Source: an uncultured bacterium (GTDB taxonomy: Bacteria > Bacillota > Clostridia > Lachnospirales > Lachnospiraceae). From it: 48,076 bases of DNA. Every line of letters begins with the position of its first letter. The stretch's first letter is position 1. The position numbers and the translations under genes were made by a program. A model generated the notes under the pieces. That model saw nothing but the letters and a program-made list of their open reading frames with translations, was not told the DNA's origin and did no database searches. Location: the NCBI GenBank assembly GCA_947177425.1, contig CAMWUN010000025.1, forward strand, positions 1 through 48,076, written 5' to 3'. This document shows positions 30,181 to 47,913 of the stretch, one piece after another.

Positions 30181-30289
30181 CATTTCCTCCTGTCCCGACA
30201 TGATTGTATATATCATGTATACATTTTATCACAAACAAAGTTTCCCTGCAATCCGCTATATCTTTTTTTATGGCAGGAAGTATGTCTTC

Positions 30290-30314
30290 GTTTACTGTTC
30301 ACGCAGACCTGCGC
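30290..30314. repeat. Half copy of the REP-like element fused to a GT8 gene end
   Basis: Bases 30292-30314 match 22 of 23 positions of the corresponding part of the window-end repeat (TTACTGTTCAC-CAGACCTGCGC). The second half of the hairpin is missing. On the minus strand it supplies the last five codons and the TGA stop of the GT8 gene. Confidence 0.65.
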
Positions 30315-31201
30315 CTTTTCCCTTTCCAGTCGTGGTTTCTGTAAAACAGGTAAAGACCGTACACAAATCTTACAGGGCAAAGCAGTATCCGGCCCAGAAT
30401 CCCCGCTCTTCTTCCAGGGCTCACATGCCATTCCGCTTTTCCCCAGAACAGGTACAGCCCTCCCATGTATCCTTTATTCCAGGGTTTGCTTTTCCCCATA
30501 TAATGGACGATTTTCCCCATTTTCCTGGCCTTCTGCGGCATAGGCATCTGCAGATACTCTTTCAGATATAGAATATTGGGGTTTAAATTGTAAGCGTCCG
30601 GCATCTGTCTGATATACCCTTCCCACATAATATTTATTATATCCTGGTCTGGGAAAATCATTTCTTTGCCTCTTTCCTCCAGAAGTCTCCGTACTTCTTC
30701 CACTGATTTCTTCTCCCGCATCTTCTTTAAATCCATGAGGATTACGCCGGAATTGACATAAACGGCATCTTCCCCAAGGCCCAGCCTTTTTCTATGGTCG
30801 ATTTGGGCGTAGGGCCTGTCGCGCACTGCCGCCATCGCGTCTTTCCCCAGATTCATATGAAAGAAGCTGCCCAGGGAATCGTTGACAATAATATCCGGAT
30901 CAAGGTACAGTACCCTGTCCTCCCCGGGCAGAAGCCAGGGCGTCAGGATACGGTAATACATTTCTTTAGAAAAATACCCCATAACGGGAGCTTTTTCAAA
31001 AACATCATTTTCCACCTGCACCTCCGAAAATTCCTGGCGATACCCTGTGCAGAACCTGCGCAGTTCCCCCACCTGACCGGATGATAAACCGGAATGTATC
31101 AGAAATACTTCCACAGGCTCCTTCTGGGTGGAAAAGAGACTGTGGAGCATCACTTTTAAAGGATATATATACGTTTCGTTTACGGTGACAACTACTTTCA
31201 T
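30299..31201 (-). CDS. Glycosyltransferase family 8 (last gene of exopolysaccharide operon)
   Basis: The product of 300 residues belongs to GT8, retaining enzymes that use UDP-glucose or UDP-galactose. Visible motifs are the N-terminal VVVTVNETYIYPLKVMLHS, the metal-binding DxD in YLDPDIIV, VNSGVILMDLKKM, PDQDIINIMW and the C-terminal HYMGKSKPW. It is a clear paralog of the GT8 at 45850-46752, at the other end of the operon. I use the ATG at 31201, five bases after the pullulanase stop; an upstream GTG with AGGA is an alternative. Its last codons and stop codon fall in the REP-like half repeat, which may have replaced the original 3' end. It probably adds side-chain sugars to the polymer or a lipid carrier. 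Confidence 0.87.
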   Translation of the reverse strand: MKVVVTVNETYIYPLKVMLHSLFSTQKEPVEVFLIHSGLSSGQVGELRRFCTGYRQEFSEVQVENDVFEKAPVMGYFSKEMYYRILTPWLLPGEDRVLYLDPDIIVNDSLGSFFHMNLGKDAMAAVRDRPYAQIDHRKRLGLGEDAVYVNSGVILMDLKKMREKKSVEEVRRLLEERGKEMIFPDQDIINIMWEGYIRQMPDAYNLNPNILYLKEYLQMPMPQKARKMGKIVHYMGKSKPWNKGYMGGLYLFWGKAEWHVSPGRRAGILGRILLCPVRFVYGLYLFYRNHDWKGKRRRSA

Positions 31202-31206
31202 GCCAT

Positions 31207-33858
31207 TCACGCTTTTTTCCTGCCTTTCCTGATTCCATACCACCCAGCGCCTGCAGATGCCAGCAGCACTGCCGCCAGAATCAAAAGCCGCTTTACATTT
31301 ACCACTTTCCTCACTGCGGCAAGGGCGGAAGCCTTTCCCACCGCCAGGGGACTGCCCGCCTGTACCCTTTCAATGCACGCTGTTCCTGCCATCTTTTCAT
31401 TGACACAGATTTCCCATTCGCCGGAAAGGGGAACATATTCGACCATTTCCTCCGTAGGGTTGAACAGAAGGCAGATTTGGTTGTCGAAGAAAAGACTTTC
31501 CGGCTCTTTTACATAGTATCCCATAACATTCCCGGGAAGCCCTTCAATAAATACCAGATTGTCATTTAGCTTTTCCGCAGTCTCATAACGCAGTCCTTTA
31601 TGGGCCTTGCGAAACGCAATAAGCCCCTGGTAATAGGCAAGCACATCAGCATTTTTACTCCTGTTCTCCCAGTCTATGGCATTGACATAATCCCCCGCTT
31701 CGAAAGAATTGCCATACTTCCGTTCCGGGTCTTTTTCTGACGTTTTTGTCCGCAGAAACTCTTCCCCGCTGTGCAGGAAGGGAGTCCCCTGGCACAGAAG
31801 CACACAGGCCGCCCCAAAGCAATCTCTCTGCTTCCACATCTCCACATCTTCATCAGGGCAGCTTAATCCGATTAAATCCCAAAGAGTATACCCGTCATGG
31901 CAGGATGCATAATTGATACACTGGAGAGGATTTTCCGTCCAGCTTCCCGCATCTTTGGTATTGGGATTCTTCACTGCCCCTGCAAAACCGAATTCCATCC
32001 CGATAAGGGTATCCCGCTTCTCTACAATGCCGCAGATATAGTTCTGCACCGCCCTTCGGAACACATTGTTGAAGGTGGCAATCCGGGGCGTAAACCGGGC
32101 ATTTAAGGATTCCAGCCGTTCCCCTTCATAAATTGTCTCCCCGGCGTCCCAGCCTTCCCCGTAAAGCACGGCCTTAGGATTTATCCGGTATACTTCCTTT
32201 TCCACCTGCTTCATCGTCTCCAGATCCATAAGTCCCATCAGGTCAAAGCGGAAGCCGTCCACATGATATTCCTCCATCCAGTATTTCAAAGCGTCCAGTA
32301 TGTACTTTCTGACCATGTCCCTTTCCGTAGCCAGTTCATTTCCGCAGGCAGAGCCGTTGGAATAGCTTCCGTCCTTTGTAATCCGGTGATAATAACCGGG
32401 CACAATCAGTTCAAAGTTAGAGTTCTCACCCTGATAGGTGTGGTTAAAAACCACATCCAGCACCACGCCGATTCCCTTTTTATGGAAACTCTGCACCATA
32501 CGCCTGCATTCTTCCACCCGCACCAGCCCGTCATAAGGGTCTGTTGCATAGGAACCTTCGGGCACGAAATAATTCATGGGATTATATCCCCAATTATACC
32601 CGTCCTTTGGGGCGCTCTCGTCCACACCGCCGAAATCCTGGACAGGCAGAAGGTGCACATGGGTGATCCCCAGCTCCGACAGATAGGAAAGCCCGGTGCT
32701 CTCCCCAAAAGAGTTTACGGTCCCTTCCTCCGTAAGCCCTAAAAACTTCCCTTTTTCCGTCACGCCGGAAGCTTCCCCGGAGGTGTAATCCCTCACGCTC
32801 ATCTCATACAGAATCACATCTTCCCTGGGAATATCCTTGATAAAAGAATCCTCCCCAAATCCTTCGGGGATTCCGTCCCCTTTTGCAAGAATCATGCCTC
32901 TTTCCCCATTCAGCCCCGTACTTTTGGCATAAGGATCTACTGCCTCCCTCTCGCTTCCCTGGACATTCACCAGATAAGTGTAATACATGTGCCTGTAATC
33001 CCCCTCCAGAGTAAGCGACCACACTCCCTTTATCCCTCTCTCCATGGGAAATCTGTTAACCGCCTCCCCTCCGTTTCCTTCCCTGTATAAAAGCAGCGTC
33101 ACTTCCTCCGCCGCCGGGGACCATACCCGGAAAGTACATTCCTTCTCATTGCATTCCGCGCCTAAATCGCTGCCGTCATAGACAAAATTATCCCTAAAAT
33201 AATCTGTATCATAAATTTCCCCCAGCCGGATACATGTCTTCGCATCCCCAATGGTCAGATAAAAGGTATTGGGCAGTTCCACAGGCTCTCTTAAAGTCAT
33301 GGCCCCCGACGCAATCACCCCGTCCCTTCTAATTTTCGTTATGGCCAGGGCATATTCCCTGCCTTCTTTATCTTCCATACGAATGGAAACATCCTCCGGG
33401 CAATAAGCCCGGAACGTAACCTCCTTTTGGGACACAAGAGCGGCATCCATAATCCGCACGCCCATCTCTTTCTTTTCATAATAAATAGTCTTATCCCCCT
33501 GCCACAGCCACAGGGTAAGCCTGCCGTCCTTCACCCTTCCCAAATCCAGAAACCGGTCCGTGTCAACATCCTTTTCCTCCCAGTTCCCCTTTCTGACCAG
33601 AATCCCCACTTCCTCCTGCCCATCCAGTTTCAGGACACATTCCGCCGCCACATCGCTGCCCCTTTCCTCAAAAGGAACCGACTGTCCCGCATTCTGCCCG
33701 GTCCAAATCCAAAGATTCCAGTCCTCATAATCCTCATTATAACGGACATAATGCACCTCAACCGTCACACTCTCCTTCTCCTGCCCCAAAGCCTCCCCAT
33801 AAAGTCCCATCCAGCACAAAACCAGCGCACCTATAAAAACACAAACCCGTTTCCACAT
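31207..33858 (-). CDS. Type I pullulanase (GH13_14), membrane anchored
   Basis: The product of 883 residues cleaves alpha-1,6 branches in alpha-glucans such as pullulan or limit dextrin. It has an N-terminal signal segment (1-25), a CBM41-like starch-binding domain (about 31-120), a CBM48-like domain (about 235-320) and a GH13 barrel. The pullulanase signature YNWGYNP is at 421-427, the nucleophile Asp539 in GFRFDLMGL, and the acid/base Glu568 in LYGEGWDAG. A C-terminal membrane helix with a basic tail anchors it outside the cell; no LPXTG sorting motif is seen. It sits among glycosyltransferase genes in the exopolysaccharide operon, an unexpected place. It may trim or edit an alpha-glucan part of the polymer, or be a starch-foraging enzyme co-expressed with it. 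Confidence 0.92.
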   Translation of the reverse strand: MWKRVCVFIGALVLCWMGLYGEALGQEKESVTVEVHYVRYNEDYEDWNLWIWTGQNAGQSVPFEERGSDVAAECVLKLDGQEEVGILVRKGNWEEKDVDTDRFLDLGRVKDGRLTLWLWQGDKTIYYEKKEMGVRIMDAALVSQKEVTFRAYCPEDVSIRMEDKEGREYALAITKIRRDGVIASGAMTLREPVELPNTFYLTIGDAKTCIRLGEIYDTDYFRDNFVYDGSDLGAECNEKECTFRVWSPAAEEVTLLLYREGNGGEAVNRFPMERGIKGVWSLTLEGDYRHMYYTYLVNVQGSEREAVDPYAKSTGLNGERGMILAKGDGIPEGFGEDSFIKDIPREDVILYEMSVRDYTSGEASGVTEKGKFLGLTEEGTVNSFGESTGLSYLSELGITHVHLLPVQDFGGVDESAPKDGYNWGYNPMNYFVPEGSYATDPYDGLVRVEECRRMVQSFHKKGIGVVLDVVFNHTYQGENSNFELIVPGYYHRITKDGSYSNGSACGNELATERDMVRKYILDALKYWMEEYHVDGFRFDLMGLMDLETMKQVEKEVYRINPKAVLYGEGWDAGETIYEGERLESLNARFTPRIATFNNVFRRAVQNYICGIVEKRDTLIGMEFGFAGAVKNPNTKDAGSWTENPLQCINYASCHDGYTLWDLIGLSCPDEDVEMWKQRDCFGAACVLLCQGTPFLHSGEEFLRTKTSEKDPERKYGNSFEAGDYVNAIDWENRSKNADVLAYYQGLIAFRKAHKGLRYETAEKLNDNLVFIEGLPGNVMGYYVKEPESLFFDNQICLLFNPTEEMVEYVPLSGEWEICVNEKMAGTACIERVQAGSPLAVGKASALAAVRKVVNVKRLLILAAVLLASAGAGWYGIRKGRKKA

Positions 33859-33883
33859 TTCCTTTCATGGCCCTCCCAAAAAC

Positions 33884-35089
33884 TCAGATTTCTCTTTTCA
33901 GCCGTTCCAGTTCTTCCTTCTGCCTCTCCATTACATCCACCTTGGGCTGTTCTTCCCTCCAGGCTCTTTCTATTCCCTCTGCAATGGCCTGGGGATTCAG
34001 CTTTGTAATCACACCTGTCCCGTAAAAGGCAAGCTGTTCCCGGTTGCTCCCACAGTCGGAAGCTACTACTTTCCTGCCCAGAATCACCGCCTCTGTGATA
34101 GAGGTGCAGAAACCCTCAAAACGTGTCTCCTGCAGATAAATATCGCAGGCCGCCATGTATGGGTAGGGATTTTCCTTTGCCCCCAACAGGAAAAAACTGT
34201 CCGCCACACCCTGCTTTCTGATTTCCCGCTCCAGCTCTCTCTGCAGGGAGCCGTCCCCCAGCACATACCAGCGGGCCTTTACGCCCTTTTGTTTCAGCAG
34301 GGCCATGGTCCGTATGGCCACGTCGAAAGCCTTTACATACTCCAGTCTTGCCGCTGTCAGGAGACAGATTGTCCCCGGCTCTTTTTTCATGTCTTTCGGG
34401 GTACCGTCTTCCCGCAGATTCCCTTCCTTTGCCTTGTCCTTCACCCATAACGCGTCTGCAAAATTATAGAAAGTTTCTATTTTATCCTTACAGGCCGGGA
34501 AAATCTCCTTAAGTCCTGCCCCGATAAAATCAGACACACAGTAAATTTTGTCCGCCTTTTCATAATAGGGCCTGTCCCACCTGGCACAATAACCGCTTGC
34601 CTCATAATCATTGTGGAGGAAGACTACTTTCTTCCGGGCTTTCACGTGATCCATCACGTAATAAGTGGCCGCCCCCTGCAGATATCCCACTGCCAGATCG
34701 AACTCCTCCCCTGTCACCGGCGCCGTATCCGACGCAGGCTTCCAGCACAGCTTTTTGACATCAACCTTCTTTTCCTTTATCTGCCAGAGCAAAAGCTTCA
34801 GCATGGGAACAAGTTCACAAAAGAAAATCTTCTTTTCCCACAGTCCCTTAAGAAGGTCTTTCATAATCCCTTTTCTCGCCCTGCTGTCAAAGACGGTGGA
34901 ACTTTCCGGGGCCTGATTTAAAATCCGCACATGGGAAGGCACCTCCCTGAACAGCTCCCCCCTGCCCAGCACGGAAAAAAGTGATAGTTCATAAGCATCA
35001 TCCTTCCATGCATTCAGCAGATGAATCAGACACCGCTCGGCTCCTGCCCGGCCCATGGTATTTATCACAAACAATACCTTCTTTTTCAT
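33884..35089 (-). CDS. Glycosyltransferase family 4 (GT-B)
   Basis: The product of 401 residues begins KVLFVINTMGRAGAERCLI, the GT4 donor-site start. It ends with an E-x7-E motif (EGFCTSITEAVILGRKVVASDCGS) that binds the nucleotide sugar. The ATG at 35089 is preceded by GAGGAAACT; the longer frame to 35209 has no site and overlaps the upstream gene. It uses an activated sugar to extend a glycan on the cytoplasmic face. Neighbours are the multi-pass membrane protein before it and the pullulanase after it (25-base gap). An imperfect hairpin at 35108-35142 lies in the gap upstream. Sugar specificity is not predictable. Confidence 0.87.
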   Translation of the reverse strand: MKKKVLFVINTMGRAGAERCLIHLLNAWKDDAYELSLFSVLGRGELFREVPSHVRILNQAPESSTVFDSRARKGIMKDLLKGLWEKKIFFCELVPMLKLLLWQIKEKKVDVKKLCWKPASDTAPVTGEEFDLAVGYLQGAATYYVMDHVKARKKVVFLHNDYEASGYCARWDRPYYEKADKIYCVSDFIGAGLKEIFPACKDKIETFYNFADALWVKDKAKEGNLREDGTPKDMKKEPGTICLLTAARLEYVKAFDVAIRTMALLKQKGVKARWYVLGDGSLQRELEREIRKQGVADSFFLLGAKENPYPYMAACDIYLQETRFEGFCTSITEAVILGRKVVASDCGSNREQLAFYGTGVITKLNPQAIAEGIERAWREEQPKVDVMERQKEELERLKREI

Positions 35090-35150
35090 AGTTTCCTCAT
35101 TTCTGTGCTGCATTTTATCCATGTGAAAGTTTATGGATGCAGTACAGACA

Positions 35151-37403
35151 TTATCCTTCTTTGTCCTGTTTACTGTAAATCCCCTGTTTTTCTTCCAGCA
35201 TCCTGTCATATTCCTCGTCGGAAATCACATTGTATCCATAATCCACCGCCAGATTATTCCAGGCATATTCATTTTGTTTAAGCCGGTAAACCACACAGTC
35301 CTCCGATTCCATATAGACACTCATCTGTTCCGGGAACAATCTGGAATATGCCTCAATCCATGCCTCCAGCTTGGCCTCCAAAGCCCTTCTGTTTTCATAG
35401 ATATTATAATATTTCATGGAACCGTTTCTGGATATGCCCAGCATCTCCTTCGTCACCACAGTTTCCGCTTCCTCCCGTCTTATGGGCATATCATGATACT
35501 GCTGTCCCATGACTCTGGTGACATTATAGGGAATGGGCTTTTTTTCCAGGATAAAAAACACATTCTTTGTGGGGATTTCCAGATATCTGGTCTCATCGTA
35601 GCGTTCCATATTTGAAATGAATTCCCACAGTTCATAGTGGAATCCCAGCCCCCTTACCTGAGACAGTTCCTCTACCGGGGAGACTACCGTCCATGTATTT
35701 TTCTCATATTCCCCTGCTATTTTTACACAGGCTTTTGCCGCCGTGGAGGTTTCCAGATAGAAGTACGTCTGGAAAGGGATATTACCCAGCCCGTAGGTAA
35801 CATAAAAGCATAGCGCCGCTGCCGCAATCCCCAGACATTCTGCGATTCTTTTTCCCCACTTTCCAAAGTATGCCGCCAGACATTCCGCCGGAAGGGCAAA
35901 AAGCACAGGGCCAAAATAGCCTACAAACATACTGACCCTCTCCTCCTTCATCAACTGGGGAATCCCTAGTATCCAGTAGCCTATCAGCACCGTACAGAAA
36001 AGCAGTGTCAGCCATACCGCAAAGAACTGCTTATTCTTCCAGTCCTTCCAGCTTCTGCGCCTAAGCACAAAACAGGCTGCGGCAAAGCACATGCCAGCCC
36101 AGAATACATATCCCCAGAAAGCATACATCTTTTCCACCATCATGTCCAAAAACATGCGGGGCATACTTTTCTTTTCCATCTCTGCCCGGGCCTGGGCAGC
36201 AATATCCTCTTCTTCCTCCCCGCGTACCTCCTCAAGCTGTAGTTCTTCTTCCTTGTCCTGGCTGTTTTGTATGACGCCTAAAGCCCATGACATGGAGCCC
36301 TGCCAGTATTTTCCTTCCAGCTTCCCGGCCAGAAAAGGGAGCATACTGATGCAGGCTGTCAGAAGCAGACACCGCAGCAGAGGCAGTATCAGTTTTTCCC
36401 TCCATATCTTCCCAAGATAAACAAGGCCCAGACTGCCGCAGAGGGCAACTGCAAAAATTGCTGTAAAGAAATGGGTGGACATAATCAGGGATGCGGCAAG
36501 CGCAAAATACACACCGTCCTCTTTCTTCTTATCCTCAAGGAACCTCCCCAGATATAAAAGACAGATGAACAAAAAAGGCATGGCACATTCCTGGGGCAGG
36601 GTAAAAGCCATCCGGTAGGCAAAATGATTGCCTGCGAAATCCGTCACCCCGTATATCACAAGATAAATCAACACCGCCGCTTTTGTACTCCCGATACGGC
36701 GCAGGAAATAGACGGCGGAAGCCGCTGTAAGTATACAGTTGACAGCCCCGAAATACCGGAAAATATAGTTCATATGAAGCCCTGTGAGAAGATGCAGGGC
36801 AGAGAGCATATTGTGCATGCCGAAGGGATAAATACCGTCATAGAAAATATCCCCCATCTCCATATAGTTAATCCATTCATGATGGACATACATATCGGAA
36901 GTCATATAAGCATAGCTGCCCAGAAAAGGCATGAGCCTTCTTTCCATCAGTATCAGAAAAGCGGCAAGGCACAGCACAAAATACACGGCTTTTCCAAAGG
37001 TAATCTCCCGTAACGATTCCTTTACCCCGTCCTTCAAGTTTTGCCAGCGCTTTCTCATCCAGTTCTTTACAAAGATTTCCGTCCGGTACTGGCCGCCCCC
37101 CAGGAGAGCCAGCACCCGGAAACCCCGCATGATTTTTTCCCTGTACTTTACCTTCTTAACCAGCCCGTATACAATCAGTGTGAGAATAAGCCCTGCTGCC
37201 AGTGTAAATCTGTTATATATATGAAGAAGGCCCAGACCGTACACCAGACTGATGCACACGGTATAACTTACCATGACTGCCTTCCATAAACTGTCCGCTG
37301 TCTGCCCCTTTCCAATGGGCAGTCGTAAAATCTTAACCGGCGCCAGCACCAGCAGCACAACATAAAAAACAAGAAAATATATGATACTGCCTATGTCCTG
37401 CAT
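35151..37403 (-). CDS. Large multi-pass membrane protein, GT-C-like, of the exopolysaccharide operon
   Basis: The product of 750 residues has roughly 12-14 predicted membrane helices. An acidic segment SDMYVHHEWINYM lies after an early helix, followed by YPFGMHNMLSALHLL, a layout like the catalytic loop of GT-C enzymes. A long, strongly acidic cytoplasmic-type loop (about residues 395-430, rich in Glu) and a soluble C-terminal region of about 190 residues are further features. I do not recognise a named family. AAAGGAGGAGGAG precedes the ATG and the gene follows the pelE-like gene by 13 bases. It could add a lipid-linked sugar outside the membrane or help polymer assembly. Confidence 0.7.
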   Translation of the reverse strand: MQDIGSIIYFLVFYVVLLVLAPVKILRLPIGKGQTADSLWKAVMVSYTVCISLVYGLGLLHIYNRFTLAAGLILTLIVYGLVKKVKYREKIMRGFRVLALLGGGQYRTEIFVKNWMRKRWQNLKDGVKESLREITFGKAVYFVLCLAAFLILMERRLMPFLGSYAYMTSDMYVHHEWINYMEMGDIFYDGIYPFGMHNMLSALHLLTGLHMNYIFRYFGAVNCILTAASAVYFLRRIGSTKAAVLIYLVIYGVTDFAGNHFAYRMAFTLPQECAMPFLFICLLYLGRFLEDKKKEDGVYFALAASLIMSTHFFTAIFAVALCGSLGLVYLGKIWREKLILPLLRCLLLTACISMLPFLAGKLEGKYWQGSMSWALGVIQNSQDKEEELQLEEVRGEEEEDIAAQARAEMEKKSMPRMFLDMMVEKMYAFWGYVFWAGMCFAAACFVLRRRSWKDWKNKQFFAVWLTLLFCTVLIGYWILGIPQLMKEERVSMFVGYFGPVLFALPAECLAAYFGKWGKRIAECLGIAAAALCFYVTYGLGNIPFQTYFYLETSTAAKACVKIAGEYEKNTWTVVSPVEELSQVRGLGFHYELWEFISNMERYDETRYLEIPTKNVFFILEKKPIPYNVTRVMGQQYHDMPIRREEAETVVTKEMLGISRNGSMKYYNIYENRRALEAKLEAWIEAYSRLFPEQMSVYMESEDCVVYRLKQNEYAWNNLAVDYGYNVISDEEYDRMLEEKQGIYSKQDKEG

Positions 37404-37416
37404 TGCTCCTCCTCCT

Positions 37417-38325
37417 TTATTTTTTCAGCCAGAACCGTATAATATCAAGACCTTTTCTGGAAAGGGCTATCCCTGAGTCTGCCAGTTCTTTCAGGCATTT
37501 GTAAAAGTCTTCTTCTTTCCCAAGATAATATTTGATGTACAGAATATTCATATATGGCTGTTCGTCGTCGGGCCACTTCTCCAACGACATTTCCGCCCAC
37601 TTTTCCGCCTCCGCGCTTTTTCCTTCTTTGCACAGCGCCTTTACCATCATTGCCGCATGCTCGCTGGTAACTGCCCTGGGATGATACCCCATCAGGTTTT
37701 CCACCAGTCCCGTGTAAATGTAAAGATAAGTCAGCTCCTCCACACCGAACAGCGCGCCGCTGCCTAAAATACGCATTACCACATCGATATACTCTTCATT
37801 GATCTCCCGGTTTGACCTGTCCTTGTCATAGGCAGCCTGAAGCTGGTTCACCTCCGCAGTGAATTTGCCGAATATATCCGTCAGTGCAGAAGCCGCATAG
37901 TGGGCCGTCTCCGGGTCCTCGTTTTCCACTGCCTTGCGGATCAAGCTGAGTCTGTCGCTTACGTCCGTCTTAAGCAGGTTAATCATGGCTTCCCTTCTGT
38001 CTCTGGTGGTGGAAACCGTAAGCACCTCCTCCAAAGGGAGCATTTTCATTTCCGTCTCTTTATCCACCGCCTGCTCAAACTGCTTTTTGGTCTTATCCAT
38101 ACTTAAGTTCATATAATCCACTTCTTTTTCCGAAATAAACAAATCCTGAAGATAACTGAAAAAATAGCAGCAAAGAGCCGTGACGGGGCAACAGACTATG
38201 ACAAATCCCCTGATAAACACGTAATTTCTTTTTGTCTTCCGGTACATAATAATCATATAGGCCAGGGCAGTCAGAAAATTAACTGCCAGTACAAGATAAA
38301 TCGCCACATTCCCGTTATAGTTCAT
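37417..38325 (-). CDS. pelE: PelE-like TPR membrane protein
   Basis: The product of 302 residues has two N-terminal membrane helices (about 5-27 and 38-60). An extramembrane helical domain with tetratricopeptide-like repeats follows, clearest in the last 90 residues (AMMVKALCKEGKSAEAEKWAEMSLEKWPDD). This is the architecture of PelE, which in Pel systems binds PelD in the membrane complex. The gene follows the PelD-like gene and overlaps it by 11 bases, as pelE does in known loci. The ATG at 38325 has AAGGTGG nine bases upstream; a frame from 38409 inside the PelD-like gene is less likely. Sequence-level proof of homology needs a profile search, so the name rests on architecture and position. 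Confidence 0.6.
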   Translation of the reverse strand: MNYNGNVAIYLVLAVNFLTALAYMIIMYRKTKRNYVFIRGFVIVCCPVTALCCYFFSYLQDLFISEKEVDYMNLSMDKTKKQFEQAVDKETEMKMLPLEEVLTVSTTRDRREAMINLLKTDVSDRLSLIRKAVENEDPETAHYAASALTDIFGKFTAEVNQLQAAYDKDRSNREINEEYIDVVMRILGSGALFGVEELTYLYIYTGLVENLMGYHPRAVTSEHAAMMVKALCKEGKSAEAEKWAEMSLEKWPDDEQPYMNILYIKYYLGKEEDFYKCLKELADSGIALSRKGLDIIRFWLKK

Positions 38326-40474
38326 CCAGCATAACCACCTTATTCGTAAATCCTTCCCTTGCAAGTTTCCGTACCACAAATTCCGCATCATCATAATTAG
38401 TATGGGCAAGTATGTAAATGAAGGAATCTCCTTCCTTCATATAGCCGATTCTGTCGCTGTCCCTAAGCAGCGCGCCAAATTCCCCGTTGAGCTGGACAAG
38501 GCTCCGCCCCTGTGCCTGTACCTGAATCAGGGTGTACTCTGCCTCTTCCCTTGTTTTTCCCTCCAGATGCTCTAATACTCTGCGTTCAAAAGCTTCTGGC
38601 AGCATAATATTGGTTTCCTCGTAATATTCCTGGTTACGTCCCACCTTTTCATACTGGTAGCCCTTTTCCAGACTGGAGGTAATCAGCTTAACAAGTACCA
38701 GGAACAGGTTTTTCTTGTACAAATTCAGTTCTTCAAATTCAATGTTCCAGAGCATAACAATATATACCAGCTTATTACCCGAAAAAATCGGGGCTGCCAT
38801 ACGGGGCAGTTCCCCTCCAATACTGTGGTTCATGAACACATCCCCTGCTAAAAGGGCCGTTTCCATCTCCTGGTATTCCCTAAGCAGGATAGTCTTCTGG
38901 CTCCCGGTTTCCCTGGTAGTGGCGCCCACAAAGTGGAAGTAGTCATCGGTTCCCGAATAGTAAATGGAAACATCCTTCACCCCCATAATCCTGCTGACCA
39001 CCCGCAGGGCCGCCGTCATAATCTTGTCCACTTCCAGTACATCCAGTTCCGAAACCACATTATAAATCTTGCCAATACTGTCACCATAATTGATCAGCCT
39101 GTCCTCAAAGGTGCGCTTAATCTCCACATTGGTCTTATTAATGTCAATGATTCTTATGTACTCTTCCTCCAGCTCACGGAGCTGTTCTATCCGCTCTTTC
39201 AGCCTGAGACGGTTATTTAAGAAGGAATAGGCTATTCCAATTGCAACTACAAAATAGAACAAAAACTGCATAACGAAGTCATACTGGGATAAAATCTGGC
39301 TTAACATGCCGCCCTCATTAAGTCTCAGCCAGAGATTGCCTCCGGCTGACAGAAGCACAGCCAGAATACTTTCCCCCACGCCGCGGGTAACGGCAATCAG
39401 TATAATATACAAAAGCAGGAAATCCACGCCCGAAAAAGCCTGTACTTCTTCCCTGATAAAATACTGTGCGGCAAAGGCTGCGGCAAACAGCACTACATTT
39501 TCCACGATATGCAGAATCTTTGTAAGTCCCTGCCGTACCTGGTTCTTAACCGCCTGCTGCCTTTCCAGCTTCTGCTGCTGCTGTCTTTTCTTCCTGACTT
39601 CATCAATTTTCCTGTAATTCTTGCTTAAAAAAACTTCAACCCGCTCTAGCCCGGTCTTAATATCAATCTTGGGATAGTATCCGAAATCCCTGATAAAGTC
39701 TATACCGGGATCTTCATCTGTATCTGAAATCCGCAGTTTCCCTGCCGGACTGGCCTTGCCGTCGGGATACATATGCCTGATGCATGCCCGGAAGCTGTCG
39801 CCGTCCATCTTCTCCCTTCCCTTTACCGCATAACAGCCATAGGCCCTGTCCTTTATTTCCTCCCTGCCTACCCGGTAAATGGCTTCCGCCAGATCCGATA
39901 CATAAAGGGGCGCCGTCTGGACGGAAGGAAGCAGAAAGTCGTTTCCTCCTTTTGCCAGAAAACACTGTTCTGACAATAAATCCAAAGTATCTTCCACGCA
40001 TCTGGAACTGCCGTACACATAAGGAAGGCGGAGGGCCGCCACGAAAAACCCCGGCTCCGCATAAGTCTCGCATATCCGCTCGCCGTTCCGCACCAGCCTG
40101 CCCCTGCTCCCCTTCTCCTTCGCCGCATCCATACAGGACAGATAGCAGACTCTCGGCACCTGATACGCTTTCGCCCAGCTTAACACATTAACCAGAGCGC
40201 TGTTAAAGGCTGACGCACAGTCCTCATCCCCCCACTGGTAGTTCTCGTCCCAGGCTCCCGTAAATATCACGTAATCCGGCATGATTCCCTGTATGACATA
40301 CTTCACATCCGCCGAGGATGCCTGAAAGGAAAAAGAAATATGTTTCGGCAGACCGCTTCTTTTATCTGCTGTTTTTTTCCCTGTTAAAACATATACATCG
40401 CATTTTTCCCTATGAAGCCTGGCTATCAGATTTCCAGTCACCAGCCCATAACTTCCCACAATCAGTACTTTCAA
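38315..40474 (-). CDS. pelD: PelD-like c-di-GMP receptor fused to a degenerate SDR domain
   Basis: The product of 719 residues begins with an SDR/epimerase-like Rossmann domain (1-285; KVLIVGSYGLVTG) in which the YxxxK pair is replaced by Val128 and Glu132. A basic coiled linker (about 290-318) and about four membrane helices (320-420) come next, then a coiled coil (422-450), a GAF-like domain (about 465-605) and a degenerate GGDEF domain (about 640-719). The GGDEF signature is EGDSF (681-685), so it should not synthesise c-di-GMP. The inhibitory-site motif RxxD is present as Arg671-Asp672-Ser673-Asp674. This is the PelD layout, which binds c-di-GMP to switch on Pel polymerisation. The start is TTG with AAAGGA seven bases upstream. 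Confidence 0.75.
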   Translation of the reverse strand: MKVLIVGSYGLVTGNLIARLHREKCDVYVLTGKKTADKRSGLPKHISFSFQASSADVKYVIQGIMPDYVIFTGAWDENYQWGDEDCASAFNSALVNVLSWAKAYQVPRVCYLSCMDAAKEKGSRGRLVRNGERICETYAEPGFFVAALRLPYVYGSSRCVEDTLDLLSEQCFLAKGGNDFLLPSVQTAPLYVSDLAEAIYRVGREEIKDRAYGCYAVKGREKMDGDSFRACIRHMYPDGKASPAGKLRISDTDEDPGIDFIRDFGYYPKIDIKTGLERVEVFLSKNYRKIDEVRKKRQQQQKLERQQAVKNQVRQGLTKILHIVENVVLFAAAFAAQYFIREEVQAFSGVDFLLLYIILIAVTRGVGESILAVLLSAGGNLWLRLNEGGMLSQILSQYDFVMQFLFYFVVAIGIAYSFLNNRLRLKERIEQLRELEEEYIRIIDINKTNVEIKRTFEDRLINYGDSIGKIYNVVSELDVLEVDKIMTAALRVVSRIMGVKDVSIYYSGTDDYFHFVGATTRETGSQKTILLREYQEMETALLAGDVFMNHSIGGELPRMAAPIFSGNKLVYIVMLWNIEFEELNLYKKNLFLVLVKLITSSLEKGYQYEKVGRNQEYYEETNIMLPEAFERRVLEHLEGKTREEAEYTLIQVQAQGRSLVQLNGEFGALLRDSDRIGYMKEGDSFIYILAHTNYDDAEFVVRKLAREGFTNKVVMLDEL

Positions 40475-40494: not shown

Positions 40495-41964
40495 TTATTT
40501 AAAAGAATAAACCACGACTTTTTTCTGTTCTTCTTTTTTCTCCTTTGCCACACGTCTCTTCACCTGGATGCCTGCCACATTCCCACGACAGAAAATGTGT
40601 TCGTCCAGATGCATCAGTTTATACCGGATGCGGAAAAAAATAAAGCTGAAGCTTATAAAAGCGCCAAAGACAACCCCACAGCCGGCAAAAACCGGGGCAA
40701 GTCTGACAGAGACAAGGCTTCCGGCCCCAGTCCCTGCCATAAAGAGAAAGCCGCCAAATGCCGCGCCCCCTGCATCGTCCAGATAATACTGAAAAATCAT
40801 CATACTCTGTACCAGATACAGAATCATGTATCCTACTGACATGACCGGATACATCATAAGGATTCTTCCGGTAATGCCCAGATTTGCGGCAAATGCAAGA
40901 ATCCCGACGAATACACAAATGTTGATAATCATCTGCACCTGTATGATGTACAAAAGTTCCCTGCGCAGCACTTCTGTCATCCGTTCCCTGGCCTGCAGAA
41001 TATCCTTGCCCGAAGCCCCGATAATGGATTCGCAGTATGCCTTATAGGCCGTGTGGAATTTCGTCTCGGCATTGATGACAAAAATAACCAGCACCGAAAT
41101 ATTGCTCAGCATTGCCAGATACGTCACCACATCATAAACCGGGGCGGACCGGAACACCCTGGCCACCACCACCTGATAGGGGGAAAGAAACCAGAACACA
41201 AAATTATGGCTGTACAGCCCCAGCGTATAGAACATGTTGGCGGTAAATAAAAGACGGAATTTCTTAAAATATTTCAGCACATTCCTGCTGCTGTTGTCAT
41301 GATTCCTGAAATTCCGCCTCAGCCTCGACAAAAGCAGCATGGCAATCAGGTTAAAACTCACTGCAAGGCCGTCCAGTATCCCGCTTGTCACAGGAAAATC
41401 CAGCCAGTATACCACCGCCCATGCAAACAGAATCCCTATTGCCAGCCCAAACAAAAAGCTGTAAGTAATCCTCCGGTATTCCTTAAGCAGGGTAATGAAA
41501 GTCATACAGTAAAAGGTAAACACCAGCCCCGAATAAAACAGGTAGGTAACGAAAACATAATCCAGCGGAAGATTCCCGGTAAAATACATGGCCAGTCCAA
41601 AAGGGACGCCTGTCAGCACCGTCAGGCCAGCCAGTATCATATTTCCCATATCCATGGCCGGGAGAATACTGTCATAGTCCTCCATATAAATCCTGTCCGC
41701 CGTGTACCTGGACAAAACAATATTTATGGGAGAAGATATAATCAGTGCAAAAATAAATACATAAAGAATCGTAGACGAGAGCACTTCTCTTTCGTACAGG
41801 GAAATCTCTATATAAGGCAGCAGAAAGTACATGAGATTCAGGGCGGCAATCACCATGATGGTAGGCCCTATGGTCACAATGGTCGCGTAAAGCCCTGCAA
41901 ATACCGAACTGATGATTCCTTCTTTATTGAATAACTTCTTTAACTCGAACCCGATGCCAGCCAT
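40495..41964 (-). CDS. pelG: PelG, Pel polysaccharide membrane transporter
   Basis: The product of 489 residues starts with the PelG hallmark MAGIGFELKKLF and has about 12 predicted membrane helices, the MOP/Wzx-like flippase fold. PelG carries the growing polymer across the cytoplasmic membrane with PelD and PelE and receives it from the synthase PelF. The ATG has GGAGG about ten bases upstream and overlaps pelF by 25 bases, so the pair is coupled. The length agrees with known PelG proteins of about 450-500 residues. The C-terminal tail is basic (KRRVAKEKKEEQKK). It is the strongest single marker of the Pel system in this window. Confidence 0.88.
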   Translation of the reverse strand: MAGIGFELKKLFNKEGIISSVFAGLYATIVTIGPTIMVIAALNLMYFLLPYIEISLYEREVLSSTILYVFIFALIISSPINIVLSRYTADRIYMEDYDSILPAMDMGNMILAGLTVLTGVPFGLAMYFTGNLPLDYVFVTYLFYSGLVFTFYCMTFITLLKEYRRITYSFLFGLAIGILFAWAVVYWLDFPVTSGILDGLAVSFNLIAMLLLSRLRRNFRNHDNSSRNVLKYFKKFRLLFTANMFYTLGLYSHNFVFWFLSPYQVVVARVFRSAPVYDVVTYLAMLSNISVLVIFVINAETKFHTAYKAYCESIIGASGKDILQARERMTEVLRRELLYIIQVQMIINICVFVGILAFAANLGITGRILMMYPVMSVGYMILYLVQSMMIFQYYLDDAGGAAFGGFLFMAGTGAGSLVSVRLAPVFAGCGVVFGAFISFSFIFFRIRYKLMHLDEHIFCRGNVAGIQVKRRVAKEKKEEQKKVVVYSFK

Positions 41965-43376
41965 TCCTGCAGATCCTCCCCCACCCAGTAATTATACATT
42001 TTCCTATATTTGCGCACGACCTCTTCGTTCTGGTAAAATTCTGCCACCCGTGCTTTCCCTGCCTGCCCCATCTGTTCACGCATCTTTTCATTTCTGGCAA
42101 GAATTACCATTGCTTCCGCCGCCTTGTCCACATTCATGGTGGGAATAACCAGGCCGCTGCGCCCATAGTAGTCATTCTCCGACCCGTAAAGCAGTTCCTT
42201 ACAGCCTCCCACATCCGTTGCAATGCAGGGCTTGCCCGCCGCCATGGCCTCCAGCAGGCATAAAGGCTGTCCCTCTGAAATGCTGGTCAGTATGACCATG
42301 TCCATCTTTCCCAGATATTCCTTCACCTGAATCCTTCCGGTGAAAATCACATCGGGTATCTGGAAGTTTGCAACCAAATCCAGACATTCCTGATAATATT
42401 TTTCATTTTCCTCGGTAGGCCCCATAAGATAAAGACGAAGAGAGGGCACCTGCTGTTTCGCCAGACGGTAGGCGTTAATCATGGTCTTTACGTCCTTGAT
42501 GGGCACAATGCGCAATACCGCCCCGATATTCATCATGCTATCGCTTCTGTCCGAGGGCAGGTTTTCCATATCCTTTGCAAACACACCGTTGGATATAACT
42601 CTGGTCTTCTCCGGCGGACAGCCAATTTCCATCTGTATCTCCCTTGCGGTCTGGAACAGGGAAATTACCTGGTCAGCCGCGTCATAGATACACTGTGACA
42701 GGGTATAAAAGTATCTTATCCAGAGATTTTTATAGACACCCTGGGTCCAGTCCGCCTTGATGATTTCCTCTTCCCTTTCTCTGGTATAGATTCCATGCTC
42801 TGTAAGAATCAACGGTTTATCATACATATATTTAGCTTTACAGGCGGTAATCCCTGCATAACCTGTGGAAATGGCATGATAGCAGTCCGCTTCTTCCACA
42901 GACGTCATCAATACCCGGAACAGCGGAAGGTAAAGGGAGCGGAGACTCCACAGGAAATCCGTAAATACGCAGTTTGGATACCGTTCTATATAAAGCTGTC
43001 TGGTTAAATCCAGAAAATCCAGGCTCATCAGCAAATCGTTGGCGGAATACTCTGTACTGTCAAAAAATGAAAACAACTGTTTCCACCTGACATTTTCCCC
43101 AAACAGCAGAGAGCGCAGGCTTTCCTTTTCATCTTCCGAAATCTTCACCTTCTTTTTCTTATAAACATACTCATTCTCCGTCAGATAAGTTTCCCTGATT
43201 TCACATATATTAGAAGGAAGTTCATACTTGAATTTGCCGCCGTCTTCCCTTGCAGGCACCAGTGTGTATATGACAAAGTTCTTTTCAGGAAGAGCCTTGA
43301 TCAGCATCTGCATCCATCCTGAGACGCCTCCCGCCACATACGGGTAACTCCCCTCCGCAAACATTGCGATTTTCAT
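41940..43376 (-). CDS. pelF: PelF, GT4 family glycosyltransferase of the Pel system
   Basis: The product of 478 residues starts KIAMFAEGSYPYVAGGVSGW, the hallmark N-terminus of PelF. A GT-B fold follows, with the donor-binding E-x7-E motif in SISEGQPLCLLEAMAAGKP. PelF is the cytoplasmic polymerase that in characterised systems uses a UDP-N-acetylhexosamine. The ATG directly abuts the stop of the DUF2194-like gene, with GGAGGTG seven bases upstream, so translation is coupled. The gene order here is DUF2194-like, pelF, pelG, pelD, pelE. Actual polymer identity cannot be read from the sequence. Confidence 0.88.
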   Translation of the reverse strand: MKIAMFAEGSYPYVAGGVSGWMQMLIKALPEKNFVIYTLVPAREDGGKFKYELPSNICEIRETYLTENEYVYKKKKVKISEDEKESLRSLLFGENVRWKQLFSFFDSTEYSANDLLMSLDFLDLTRQLYIERYPNCVFTDFLWSLRSLYLPLFRVLMTSVEEADCYHAISTGYAGITACKAKYMYDKPLILTEHGIYTREREEEIIKADWTQGVYKNLWIRYFYTLSQCIYDAADQVISLFQTAREIQMEIGCPPEKTRVISNGVFAKDMENLPSDRSDSMMNIGAVLRIVPIKDVKTMINAYRLAKQQVPSLRLYLMGPTEENEKYYQECLDLVANFQIPDVIFTGRIQVKEYLGKMDMVILTSISEGQPLCLLEAMAAGKPCIATDVGGCKELLYGSENDYYGRSGLVIPTMNVDKAAEAMVILARNEKMREQMGQAGKARVAEFYQNEEVVRKYRKMYNYWVGEDLQEWLASGSS

Positions 43377-44894
43377 TTACATCCACCTCCGATTGTCCGG
43401 CTCTTCTTCCTGCCGCCCGGATATTTCCACTGTTACCTCTCTGCTTCTGATTTCCAGCAGATAAGCGTCCTCCCCTATCCGATGCACCTTATAATCCGGC
43501 CCTTCGTGAAGTTCTTTGTCTGTCCTCACCATACAGTACCACACATCCACAAAGCCTTCCGCATTTATATGAATCTGTTCCTGGCCCAGAGTGAACGCAG
43601 GCTGTATTTTCTCATACCGTTTAAACCGCTCCTGTGCTTCCTGCCAGTTTACCGCATCCAGAAACTGGTTGTTTCTATATATATCATGGATATTTTTGGA
43701 CAGTTCGCGGGAATAGGCCGCCCATTCATACTCCGGATCCTCCCCCTTACTTCCCATGATTTCCCGCATGTCATAGCAGGAAGTGGCAAGCCCCATCCCG
43801 GACGCAAAGCTTTCCATCCGCCACCGCTTTTCATCTCCCGGCATATGGCCTTCACACACTATGGGCAGAATACTGCCCTCATTATTTTCCAGGATAATTC
43901 CCCGGCTGCGCTTCATCTGGGTTTCTATGTCATAAAAATCGTCATTCTTGTCTTCCACATAACTCCTGCCGGAAATGATGACGCCCTCCATATAGCCAAT
44001 CTTGTCCATGGCAGGCCAGATAATATCCCTCACGAACATGACCGGATCCCTGCTGTAAAGTTTCTGTATCAATTCCCGGTCAGAATTTTCATAATCCGGA
44101 TAATAATCCAGAAGCACTGCGCCTGCGTTTACCACCGGATGCAGGAACACTTCCTCCATATCCGCCAGCGCGCCTGCAAAGATGCCGGTTCCTCCATCCT
44201 GGGAAAAGAAAGGGCCGTTACAGCAGTAAATCCTGCCGCTGCCATATTGCTTTTTCCATAACAGAGGGATGAGCAGCCTCTGTTCCTTATCCCTTTTACT
44301 CTTTTCCTGAATCATTTTTGTGCAGGCAGCATCAAGGGCAATATCCCTTACCTCCATGGGAAGACTGTCGTAATAAACCATTCCCTGGACCATCAGACCT
44401 TCAAAAATCATCATGCCGTCTATCTGAGCTACTCCCCTGCTCTCTAATACGCCCAGTTCCTTTTCATACGCTGCATCCTCCCCTGCCAGGCAGGTATAAA
44501 ACAGATATTTCCCTTCTTCCTGCGCAAGACGCAGAAGCTCCTGCCCCTGGTCTGCCTGCCCCGGCTCTTTTGCCGTTATGATAAACACTCTGGCTGCATC
44601 CAACTGCTCCCGGCTTATTCCGCTGATATCCGCCTTCGCAATATAAGCCTTTTTCATCTCATCAAGCATCTGCATAACCTGAATGGATATCCCGCTTTCT
44701 ATTTCATTCCCATACAAAACCACATATTCAGCAGCCTGCACTTCCTGTCTTTCCGTTATTGCCGCCCGTTCAATCTCCGGAAGGCTGTTGTCTGTCCCAT
44801 AATCCAGCGCCAAGTTCCCTGAAAAAATAAGATAGAACACAAAAATACCAAAAAAACCAGCCGTAACCGCTATATAATCTGATATTTTTAACAT
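43377..44894 (-). CDS. Membrane-anchored extracytoplasmic protein, DUF2194-like (PelA position)
   Basis: The product of 505 residues has a single N-terminal membrane helix (about 7-26) and then a large extracytoplasmic region. Most resembles the DUF2194 proteins found beside pelF and pelG in Firmicutes, but I recognise the family only loosely. The region 70-250 looks like a flavodoxin- or amidotransferase-like alpha/beta domain. Residues around VEDKNDDFYDIETQ and CEGHMPGDEKRW give Asp/His clusters that could bind metal, but I do not see a clear CE4 deacetylase triad. The ATG at 44894 has GGGAGAGAG upstream; the frame to 44948 is rejected. It occupies the position of PelA and may do its polymer-modifying job. 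Confidence 0.6.
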   Translation of the reverse strand: MLKISDYIAVTAGFFGIFVFYLIFSGNLALDYGTDNSLPEIERAAITERQEVQAAEYVVLYGNEIESGISIQVMQMLDEMKKAYIAKADISGISREQLDAARVFIITAKEPGQADQGQELLRLAQEEGKYLFYTCLAGEDAAYEKELGVLESRGVAQIDGMMIFEGLMVQGMVYYDSLPMEVRDIALDAACTKMIQEKSKRDKEQRLLIPLLWKKQYGSGRIYCCNGPFFSQDGGTGIFAGALADMEEVFLHPVVNAGAVLLDYYPDYENSDRELIQKLYSRDPVMFVRDIIWPAMDKIGYMEGVIISGRSYVEDKNDDFYDIETQMKRSRGIILENNEGSILPIVCEGHMPGDEKRWRMESFASGMGLATSCYDMREIMGSKGEDPEYEWAAYSRELSKNIHDIYRNNQFLDAVNWQEAQERFKRYEKIQPAFTLGQEQIHINAEGFVDVWYCMVRTDKELHEGPDYKVHRIGEDAYLLEIRSREVTVEISGRQEEEPDNRRWM

Positions 44895-44951
44895 TTTCTC
44901 TCTCCCGTCACTAAAACGTGTCTGAAAAAACATTCCCCCAACCTGCACGCT

Positions 44952-45857
44952 CTAGTTGGGATATATGTATCTCTTTTCATCTTCCTGCTTCCGCATCTTA
45001 CTTATCTGGTCCGACAGGATGCCGAAGCAGATAAGCTGGAAACCAAAAATAATCAGAATGGACGCTAAAATCGGTACCCCGTTTGACCACTGTAATGCCC
45101 GGATCACGCCATAGGCTGCCCCGAAAGCACACATGGCAAGGCCGCCCTTCCCAAAGACCCGCATGGGCTGGAAAAGAATAATAATCTGGAAAATCAGGGC
45201 AATCGTGCGGCAGCCGTCTCTCACCTGTCTGACGGAGCTTTTGCCCTCTCTCTTCCGCACGGTAATGTCCACTTCCCCTCCCCTGTATTCCTGCTCCAGC
45301 ATCAGCAGGGTAGTGACGGTGGAAGCGCCGAAGGTGTCCGGCAAAAGGGACAGATGCGACATAATAATTTCTCTTTTGAACCCTCTCATACCGGAATTGA
45401 AATCCCTCAGTTCTTCCTTGGTTATGAAATTCAATATTCCTTTTAAAACTTTTTTACCAAAACTTCTGCTCTTATCCACATAGGAATTGCCATCCCTGAT
45501 TCCAATACAGTAATCCAGTTCTTCCTCCTGCATTTTGTTGATAATCTTCAGCACATCTTCGGGCCTGTGCTGGCCGTCCGCGTCATACCAGATAATGATA
45601 TTTCCAGAGGATTCCCGTATCCCCGTTTTAACAGCCGAGCCATACCCTTTGTTTTTACGGTGGTTAATCAGACGGACTTGTGAAAAGCCGCTTACAATCT
45701 GGGCTGTCTGGTCTGTGCTTCCATCATTGATCACTACGATTTCCACATCTTCCATATCCCATTTTCCGATATGTTCCTGCAGTTCTGCCAGCACTGCCCC
45801 GATTGCCGCTTCCTCGTTGTATGCAGGTATGATTATGGATACACTGTTTTCACTCAT
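44952..45857 (-). CDS. Glycosyltransferase family 2 (GtrB/DPM1-like) with two C-terminal helices
   Basis: The product of 301 residues has the GT-A fold with SIIIPAYNEEAAIG at the start, VINDGSTDQT, and the metal-binding DxD in WYDADGQHRPED. About 230 residues of catalytic domain are followed by two membrane helices (about 235-285). This is the layout of polyprenyl-phosphate glycosyltransferases (GtrB, dolichyl-phosphate-mannose synthase), which load a sugar onto a lipid carrier. Such a product could feed the GT-C-like membrane protein at 35151-37403. GGGAGG lies eight bases before the ATG. It overlaps the GT8 gene by 8 bases and precedes the DUF2194-like gene by 57 bases. Confidence 0.9.
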   Translation of the reverse strand: MSENSVSIIIPAYNEEAAIGAVLAELQEHIGKWDMEDVEIVVINDGSTDQTAQIVSGFSQVRLINHRKNKGYGSAVKTGIRESSGNIIIWYDADGQHRPEDVLKIINKMQEEELDYCIGIRDGNSYVDKSRSFGKKVLKGILNFITKEELRDFNSGMRGFKREIIMSHLSLLPDTFGASTVTTLLMLEQEYRGGEVDITVRKREGKSSVRQVRDGCRTIALIFQIIILFQPMRVFGKGGLAMCAFGAAYGVIRALQWSNGVPILASILIIFGFQLICFGILSDQISKMRKQEDEKRYIYPN

Positions 45858-46752
45858 CGTCTCTTCCTCCCAATTTTCGCTTTACGACCGCCAGCAAATG
45901 CTTCCCGATTGTAATATAACGCCTGTTCCACTGTCTTGCTTTTTCCGGATCTGTCTCCGGAAATATCTTCAAATATCTGTGATACTCCACTGCAAATTTA
46001 CCGCAGTATTGAGGGTGCCAGGGTTTCACTGCCCCCATGTAATGCACCACTTTCGGATAATTCTTCTCCAGCAGGAATCCTCCTAAAATATAGAACAGCA
46101 TCCCCATCTCGCTTCCGTATCCGGTATTATAGTTGTATTTTCGCTCCAGCAGTTTGATTCTTCCCCTGAAGATAAGATTAATAATGTCCTGGTCAGGATA
46201 TTCCAGCCGCTCTCTCCATTCCTCCACTGCATGGCTGATATACCCGGCCTGGAAATTTTCCCGCATCTTGTCCAAATCCATCAGCAGAACGCCTGAATTA
46301 ATGTATTGTTCTTCCTCCTTAAACCCGATTGCCACTTTATGTGCCGAAAGCATCCTGTTTATAGCATAGTCCGGAATTCCCGCCAGTATGTTCCCTTCCA
46401 GGTCTGTCTCATACATGGATATGAGGGATCCTCTTATCATAATATCCGGGTCTAAATACAGAATTCTTTTTTCCGAAGGAAACATCACCCCTGCAAAAAG
46501 CCTGTAGTACATCTCCTTCGTGAAATACCGGAACACAGGCACCTCTGCAAGCTGTCCTTCGTCCATCCGCACCGGAAGGAACCTGCTGTTGTTCTTCTCG
46601 ACCAGCTCTTTCAGTTCCGCCAGTTCCCCGTCCCTTACATTGCTGTACAGCAGATAAATCCTGTTCTCATTCCTGTGATAAACAAAAAACGAAGTCAGCA
46701 TCACCTTCAAGGGCCGTATGTAGTTACTGTCCACTGTCACCAGAATATTCAT
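45850..46752 (-). CDS. Glycosyltransferase family 8 (proximal paralog)
   Basis: The product of 300 residues is a GT8 enzyme with ILVTVDSNYIRPLKVMLTSF, the DxD motif in YLDPDIMI, the NSGVLLMDLDKM block, and HYMGAVKPW near the end. It is paralogous to the GT8 at 30299-31201: FTKEMYYRLFAG and FSKEMYYRILTP are equivalent segments. The ATG lies inside the end of the GT4 gene upstream (29-base overlap) and has GGGAGAGG upstream. It probably transfers glucose or galactose from the UDP donor. The full, intact C-terminus (GGRDDE) contrasts with the repeat-derived end of its paralog. Confidence 0.9.
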   Translation of the reverse strand: MNILVTVDSNYIRPLKVMLTSFFVYHRNENRIYLLYSNVRDGELAELKELVEKNNSRFLPVRMDEGQLAEVPVFRYFTKEMYYRLFAGVMFPSEKRILYLDPDIMIRGSLISMYETDLEGNILAGIPDYAINRMLSAHKVAIGFKEEEQYINSGVLLMDLDKMRENFQAGYISHAVEEWRERLEYPDQDIINLIFRGRIKLLERKYNYNTGYGSEMGMLFYILGGFLLEKNYPKVVHYMGAVKPWHPQYCGKFAVEYHRYLKIFPETDPEKARQWNRRYITIGKHLLAVVKRKLGGRDDE

Positions 46753-47845: not shown

Positions 47846-47883
47846 ATTTCTCCTATCCATAACGCTACTTTTCTTATACTCTA

Positions 47884-47913
47884 ATAATACATAAATATGC
47901 ATGTTGCTGTCAA
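47884..47913 (-). promoter_or_regulatory. Promoter of the 12-gene exopolysaccharide operon
   Basis: On the minus strand a perfect TTGACA (47908-47913) is separated by 18 bases from TATTAT (47884-47889). It lies 39-68 bases before the GT4 start. The upstream 110 bases are very AT-rich, which could act as an UP element or bind a regulator. No obvious c-di-GMP riboswitch core was seen in this short leader. I found no strong internal terminator down to 30299, though internal promoters cannot be excluded. Confidence 0.7.

Follow-up and report, generated by a model that had tools for sequence, protein, structure and literature searches.

A probable PelD-type c-di-GMP receptor carrying a degenerate SDR domain in a Pel-like cluster of a Lachnospiraceae genome

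PelD of Pseudomonas aeruginosa (PDB 4DN0 and 4DMZ) joins a GAF domain to a degenerate GGDEF domain with an RxxD motif and has no short-chain dehydrogenase/reductase (SDR) domain. An N-terminal SDR domain on PelD was reported by Whitfield et al. 2020, whose main-text passages present it as possibly functional in Brevibacillus, where a functional epimerase is predicted, and as altered in streptococci, clostridia and actinobacteria (PMC7112168). Passages of a 2025 paper call the function of this domain unknown and credit the PelD classes to Whitfield and Howell 2021 (PMC12345266). Here we analyse a stretch of 48,076 nucleotides, hereafter the window, from an uncultured Lachnospiraceae bacterium (assembly GCA_947177425.1, contig CAMWUN010000025.1). 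It carries a Pel-like cluster with the gene order pelA-F-G-D-E, and the product of its pelD gene (positions 38315-40474, minus strand, as are all window features given below) is very probably a PelD-type receptor for cyclic di-GMP (c-di-GMP) with a catalytically dead SDR domain.

This protein shares with the altered-SDR PelDs the combination of an SDR domain, membrane helices, a GAF domain and a degenerate GGDEF domain in one chain, in a group (clostridia) that is named in the corresponding passages (PMC7112168, PMC12345266), as well as the alteration of both cofactor and catalytic residues and the pel operon context (PMC7112168). The proposal of the initial annotation, a dead nucleotide-sugar SDR fused to a PelD-type c-di-GMP receptor, was right, and had already been published in those passages of PMC7112168. 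By contrast, the main-text passages of these two papers do not describe Lachnospiraceae, the cleft residues or a PelA devoid of deacetylase motifs. The architecture being known, the new part appears to be a cluster in which both PelD and PelA are degenerate: no PelA without deacetylase motifs was found in the open-access main texts searched.

The window PelD and the loss of SDR hallmarks

The pelD gene is a single open reading frame (ORF) of 719 amino acids, which starts with TTG seven bases downstream of a ribosome-binding-like sequence, AGAAAGGA. From the ORF, Pfam and fold models, it would encode an SDR-like domain, transmembrane helices, a coiled coil, a GAF domain and a degenerate GGDEF domain. 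The N-terminal degenerate extended-SDR domain covers residues ~1-265 (39680-40474). Pfam Epimerase matches residues 3-205 (E 8.7e-9, 35.6 bits for a cut-off of 20.9), a 14-row PelD family profile matches the extended SDRs 3M2P and 4ZRM over residues ~1-300, and the best PDB matches of the AlphaFold2 model (42 rows, mean predicted local distance difference test score (pLDDT) of 80.6, predicted TM-score of 0.51) are nucleotide-sugar SDRs, namely WbmG, WbmF, Mth375 and UDP-glucose 4-epimerases. The extended-SDR fold first recognised in the initial annotation is thus well supported over the whole domain.

Conservation was assessed on 89 aligned rows. A set of 111 PelDs was reduced to 92 at 90% identity, from which three SDR-less proteins were set aside; one further protein without a C-terminal part (L022) was dropped before alignment, and L147, whose PelD spreads over two frames, stands outside the PelD counts. 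Alignment to 4ZRM and to L138, a PelD homologue in which GxxGxxG and YxxxK are both intact, places the former catalytic YxxxK of the window protein at 40091-40105, with Arg124 at the Tyr position and Val128 at the Lys position. Val128 and Glu132, which had been read as the substitutes of the catalytic Tyr and Lys, do exist, but this register is four residues off and is ruled out by the same alignment. Glu132 (40079-40081) lies four residues past the Lys position and is not its equivalent; 88/89 rows, among them that of the intact homologue, have a Glu there, so this residue says nothing in favour of inactivity.

The inactivity itself is well supported. YxxxK is retained by a single one of the 89 non-redundant SDR-bearing PelDs, L138, and the two residues occur together in 0/88 of the others, L143 having the Tyr alone. 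The Tyr position is occupied by Lys in 43/89 and Arg in 27/89 rows (70/89 together), the Lys position by Leu, Val or Ile in 78/89, and neither catalytic residue is found at these positions in 14 further PelDs obtained from a wider family search (L181-L194). A displaced catalytic pair was also looked for between residues 105 and 150: a Y...K string occurs in 8/88 rows, six times after Cys135 and twice upstream, never at the site.

The cofactor-binding hallmarks are similarly eroded. In the GxxGxxG loop remnant (residues 7-13, 40436-40456), G7 and G10 are kept, but Thr13 takes the place of the third Gly, so that the glycine-rich loop is incomplete. Of the 89 rows, 3 retain the third Gly and 86 have lost it, while 2 retain the Asp following beta-2 and 77 have a Thr in its place. 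Because these hallmarks are lost, the sensing of nicotinamide adenine dinucleotide (NAD(H)) suggested in the initial annotation is not supported and was set aside. The window PelD shares the fold of the extended SDR epimerases (GalE, WbmG; 4ZRM, 2PZM) and differs from them by the loss of Tyr, Lys, third Gly and beta-2 Asp. L138, which by its sequence would be of the Brevibacillus type described in passages of PMC7112168, has the same architecture as the window PelD and shares R149, D194, Glu132 and Ser113 with it, whereas the intact YxxxK and GxxGxxG of L138 are lost in the window protein. Besides Glu132, Ser113 (85/89), C135 (82/89), R149 (86/89) and D194 (88/89) are kept in most rows.

On the C-terminal side of the SDR domain, a membrane-helix region (residues ~318-430, 39185-39523) is indicated by model helices and by weak MASE1/DUF4118 matches below cut-off, and is followed by a GAF-like domain (residues ~481-610, 38645-39034), placed from the C-terminal model and fold matches, and a degenerate GGDEF-like domain (residues ~611-719, 38318-38644), which matches the folds of 4DN0 and 4DMZ; the boundaries of these three regions were set by us. 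When the last 406 residues were modelled separately (mean pLDDT 80.1), P. aeruginosa PelD took ranks 1 to 7 by E-value among the PDB matches (E from 3e-6 to 3e-5), led by its complex with c-di-GMP, 4DN0; since the TM-scores by query length are low (0.25-0.28) and the root-mean-square deviations reach 14-17 Å, the match is one of the domains and not of their arrangement. PelD was found by this fold search, while a PDB sequence search with the C-terminal profile did not find it up to E 1.

As pointed out in the initial annotation, GGDEF is lost, EGDSF occupying residues 681-685, and the I-site RxxD (residues 671-674, 38453-38464) is kept; R671 and D674 proved invariant in 89/89 rows. The fold match and this invariance support a predicted c-di-GMP receptor half, with a caveat at the third c-di-GMP contact position. 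In B. cereus this contact is R395, the mutants of which lose binding and biofilm according to passages of PMC7112168, and in P. aeruginosa it is R402. The position is Arg in 84/89 rows and Lys in 5/89, including the window protein (Lys703, with Arg702 beside it), which may be taken as a mild point against full receptor function. Enzymes of c-di-GMP metabolism are present in the same genome, as judged from 11 GGDEF matches.

Descent and conservation of the SDR domain

The whole window protein was matched in 22 of 144 relatives, hence a patchy distribution, and the nearest four named loci all belong to Lachnospiraceae genomes. When 398 genomes were sampled evenly across the phylum, PelG exceeded its cut-off in 13 and a strong match to the C-terminal part of PelD (E <1e-30) was obtained in 11, of which 8 have the SDR domain (a count that includes G362, where two frames share the pelD sequence) and 3 do not. 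In a tree of the C-terminal part built on 40 chosen rows and rooted with three SDR-less PelDs, the SDR-bearing rows fall on one side (100/100), L138 is placed among the degenerate rows (90/90, not starred), with four f62 rows without YxxxK branching outside. This topology suggests that catalysis was lost at least two times after one fusion, a reading that is tentative because seven end branches are very long. In L143 and L147, a GalE-like gene with an intact YxxxK lies directly upstream of the degenerate-SDR pelD, which fits a loss of catalysis when the epimerase is supplied separately, in these two cases only. The L147 pelD located downstream of this intact gene is the split one of G362.

Another genome, G062, encodes a free-standing PelD-SDR homologue of 304 amino acids (L154:12222-13136, minus strand) beside sortase, LCP, Wzz, CpsB and CpsD-like genes. 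A free-standing pseudo-SDR was considered as a common module and discarded: among the 21/397 family genomes with a match, one has a short frame (315 amino acids) and the others have frames of 619-736 amino acids. The domain can hardly be recognised any more in the most distant relatives: for the L140 PelD, Pfam gives no epimerase match up to E 1.

With a mean pairwise identity of 0.342 over the 89 rows, the SDR domain comes close to the GGDEF-like domain (0.358); values are higher in the GAF domain (0.468), coil (0.488) and membrane region (0.511) and lower in the linker (0.185). As it is conserved about as well as the GGDEF-like domain, the SDR domain seems to be kept and not decaying, with a conservation that is probably more than chance.

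In SDRs, the cofactor cleft is built from the loops that follow strands beta-1 to beta-6. Compared with the remaining positions of the domain, these loops are more conserved (Jensen-Shannon divergence) in the full set of 88 degenerate rows (0.519 vs 0.432, p 0.0012) and in the 72 core Lachnospiraceae rows (0.617 vs 0.513, p 0.0002), the excess being small in the 16 outlying rows that include the window clade (0.479 vs 0.447, p 0.07); these p-values, from 5000 permutations, are rough, given the relatedness of the rows and the dependence between positions. New residues are conserved in the former cleft, Gly73 in 80/89, Asp76 in 81/89 and Trp81 in 72/89. They belong to a beta-4 loop of pattern GAxDxNxxW that replaces the loop of the enzymes and reads GAWDENYQW in the window (residues 73-81, 40232-40258). 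A basic residue is present within four positions after residue 31 in 76/88 rows, loosely like the G-x-R-R NADP loop given for MAT2B in passages of PMC3793261. MAT2B, the regulatory SDR subunit of methionine adenosyltransferase (PDB match 2ydx), likewise has the extended-SDR fold in a regulatory subunit, but differs in that it keeps YxxxK and binds NADP, according to the same source.

PelA without deacetylase motifs and the surrounding cluster

The deacetylase PelA_DA of B. cereus uses D262 and H488 as base and acid and has two further His in a motif, as stated in passages of PMC13254593. In the Bacillus-like PelA of L144, DDFP starts at 261, HGYNH at 350 and HxPD at H488; as these positions agree, we take these motifs to be those of PelA_DA, the assignment being our own. 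The window pelA-like gene (43377-44948; DUF2194 2.4e-19, motif alignment) keeps one Asp of the pair and lacks HxxxH and the late His. Its product has 523 amino acids, compared to a median of 609 for the motif-less PelAs outside the window clade. Among 78 PelAs, drawn from the window and 90 loci with a PelA ORF >440 amino acids required, the Asp pair, HxxxH and late His are all kept in 9, and none of the other 69, including that of the window, has HxxxH or the late His; since resemblance to the window PelD was the basis on which loci were chosen, these proportions are uninformative on pel loci at large. Within the 69, the whole Asp pair is present in L147 only, a frameshifted locus, and at least one Asp of it in 19.

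The loci with a motif-less PelA (the window at 43377-44948, L028-L107, L177 and L180) belong to the same clade as the rebuilt PelD cleft. Adding 19 further PelAs gave 97, and the exclusion of L147 left 96 loci, this set being like the previous one not filtered for redundancy, in which GAxD was scored as the cleft motif of PelD. A motif-less PelA accompanies GAxD in 67 loci, the PelA motifs are present without GAxD in 26 (three of them without SDR domain), a motif-less PelA occurs without GAxD in 3 (two with GVYD or GCYD), and no locus combines the PelA motifs with GAxD. For the rows common to both sets, the motif-less PelAs form one 27-row clade of the tree (100/99), with the others outside; the loss of the PelA motifs and the rebuilding of the cleft are therefore to be counted as one event and not as a repeated co-occurrence. 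A second Lachnospiraceae pel lineage (L178, L179 and L181-L194) has intact PelA motifs in all loci that yielded a PelA (15/16), and the beta-4 loop in the SDR domain of its PelD differs and is mostly shorter.

The genes for PelE, PelF and PelG adjoin pelD in the same gene run. In the glycosyltransferase PelF (41940-43376; NF038011 1e-106) the EX7E motif is conserved, E368 and E376 being kept in at least 97% of 74 aligned rows; the machine therefore still looks able to polymerise. The pelG gene (40495-41964) matches PF16933 at 4.6e-114. The pelE-like gene (37417-38409) matches no family above cut-off and is assigned solely from its position after pelD and its matches in related pel loci; its true start is probably further in, since the ORF start overlaps pelD. 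Next to it, a polytopic-looking protein of 750 amino acids (35151-37403), with relatives in many related pel loci and no family above cut-off, may be a membrane glycosyltransferase. The flanks (29224-35209 and 44952-47902) encode additional GT2, GT4 and GT8 glycosyltransferases, a type I pullulanase and a chemoreceptor-like protein. A single GalE above the curated cut-off was found in the genome, on a different contig from pelD.

Possible roles of the degenerate SDR domain

We give about even chances to the reading that the SDR domain is a non-catalytic docking or regulatory domain left from a fused epimerase. In this reading, PelD regulates a Pel-like machine for exopolysaccharide and belongs to the type that combines a degenerate SDR with a degenerate GGDEF domain. 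c-di-GMP would bind its RxxD site, and the GAF domain, coil and membrane helices would pass the induced change to PelE-PelF-PelG, switching the PelDEFG complex in the way reported for P. aeruginosa and B. cereus. In origin, the SDR domain would be a GalE-type epimerase once fused to PelD, making UDP-sugar beside PelF; its catalysis would have been lost where the epimerase was supplied from elsewhere, and the retained domain would serve the complex in the cytoplasm as a platform for docking or regulation. Several points weigh against this docking reading. The docking role is one that we infer, and the supply of epimerase in trans is represented by the one GalE of the genome and the two neighbouring-gene cases, L143 and L147. 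The free-standing homologue of G062 occurs in a genome where PelG was not found. The PelD of Streptococcus thermophilus lacks the SDR domain and the strain still forms a pel-dependent biofilm, as reported in passages of PMC7112168. Finally, the excess conservation of the cleft loops in the core clade would not be predicted from a plain scaffold.

The main rival holds that the former cofactor cleft was rebuilt for another ligand, whether nucleotide, nucleotide sugar or NADP-like cofactor, which PelD would integrate with c-di-GMP. It amounts to the idea of the initial annotation minus NAD(H), and although we consider it somewhat unlikely, a UDP-sugar or another ligand is still conceivable because the former cleft has new conserved residues in one clade. 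The core-clade excess, the conserved nature of the replacements (Thr at the beta-2 Asp, Lys or Arg at the Tyr position, Gly73, Asp76, Trp81) and the MAT2B-like basic residue speak for it, against the near-general loss of the third Gly, the small excess in the outlying rows to which the window clade belongs, and the fact that strand-end loops may be conserved for packing. An inert relic, which today would do no more than fold, would agree with the loss of catalytic and cofactor residues, with the natural SDR-less PelD of the biofilm-forming S. thermophilus and with the strongly altered domain of L140; a conservation about equal to that of the GGDEF-like domain, the fact that 8 of the 11 genomes of the phylum sample with a strong PelD match have it, and the retention of E132, C135, R149 and D194 make this improbable. 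It is scarcely credible that the domain is still an enzyme in which other residues do the chemistry, even if Ser113 is widely kept, given that 88/89 rows have no YxxxK at the site, that the Y...K string of eight rows lies elsewhere and that the beta-2 Asp and the third Gly are lost.

A broader scenario, which we regard as unlikely, is that one Lachnospiraceae lineage rebuilt its Pel machine, keeping a dead PelD epimerase and a dead PelA deacetylase and adding glycosyltransferases and a large membrane protein; the PelD cleft would bind a new ligand that, together with c-di-GMP, would gate polymer export, the polymer not being deacetylated by PelA.

Passages of PMC12345266 acknowledge that what the degenerate SDR domain does on the PelD of Gram-positive bacteria is an open question. 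The intact homologue L138, the conserved replacements and the clade linking the rebuilding of the cleft with the loss of the PelA motifs make this question testable by providing concrete residues and contrasts. Moreover, genes annotated as pel in Lachnospiraceae of the gut do not necessarily imply a deacetylated, cationic Pel polymer.

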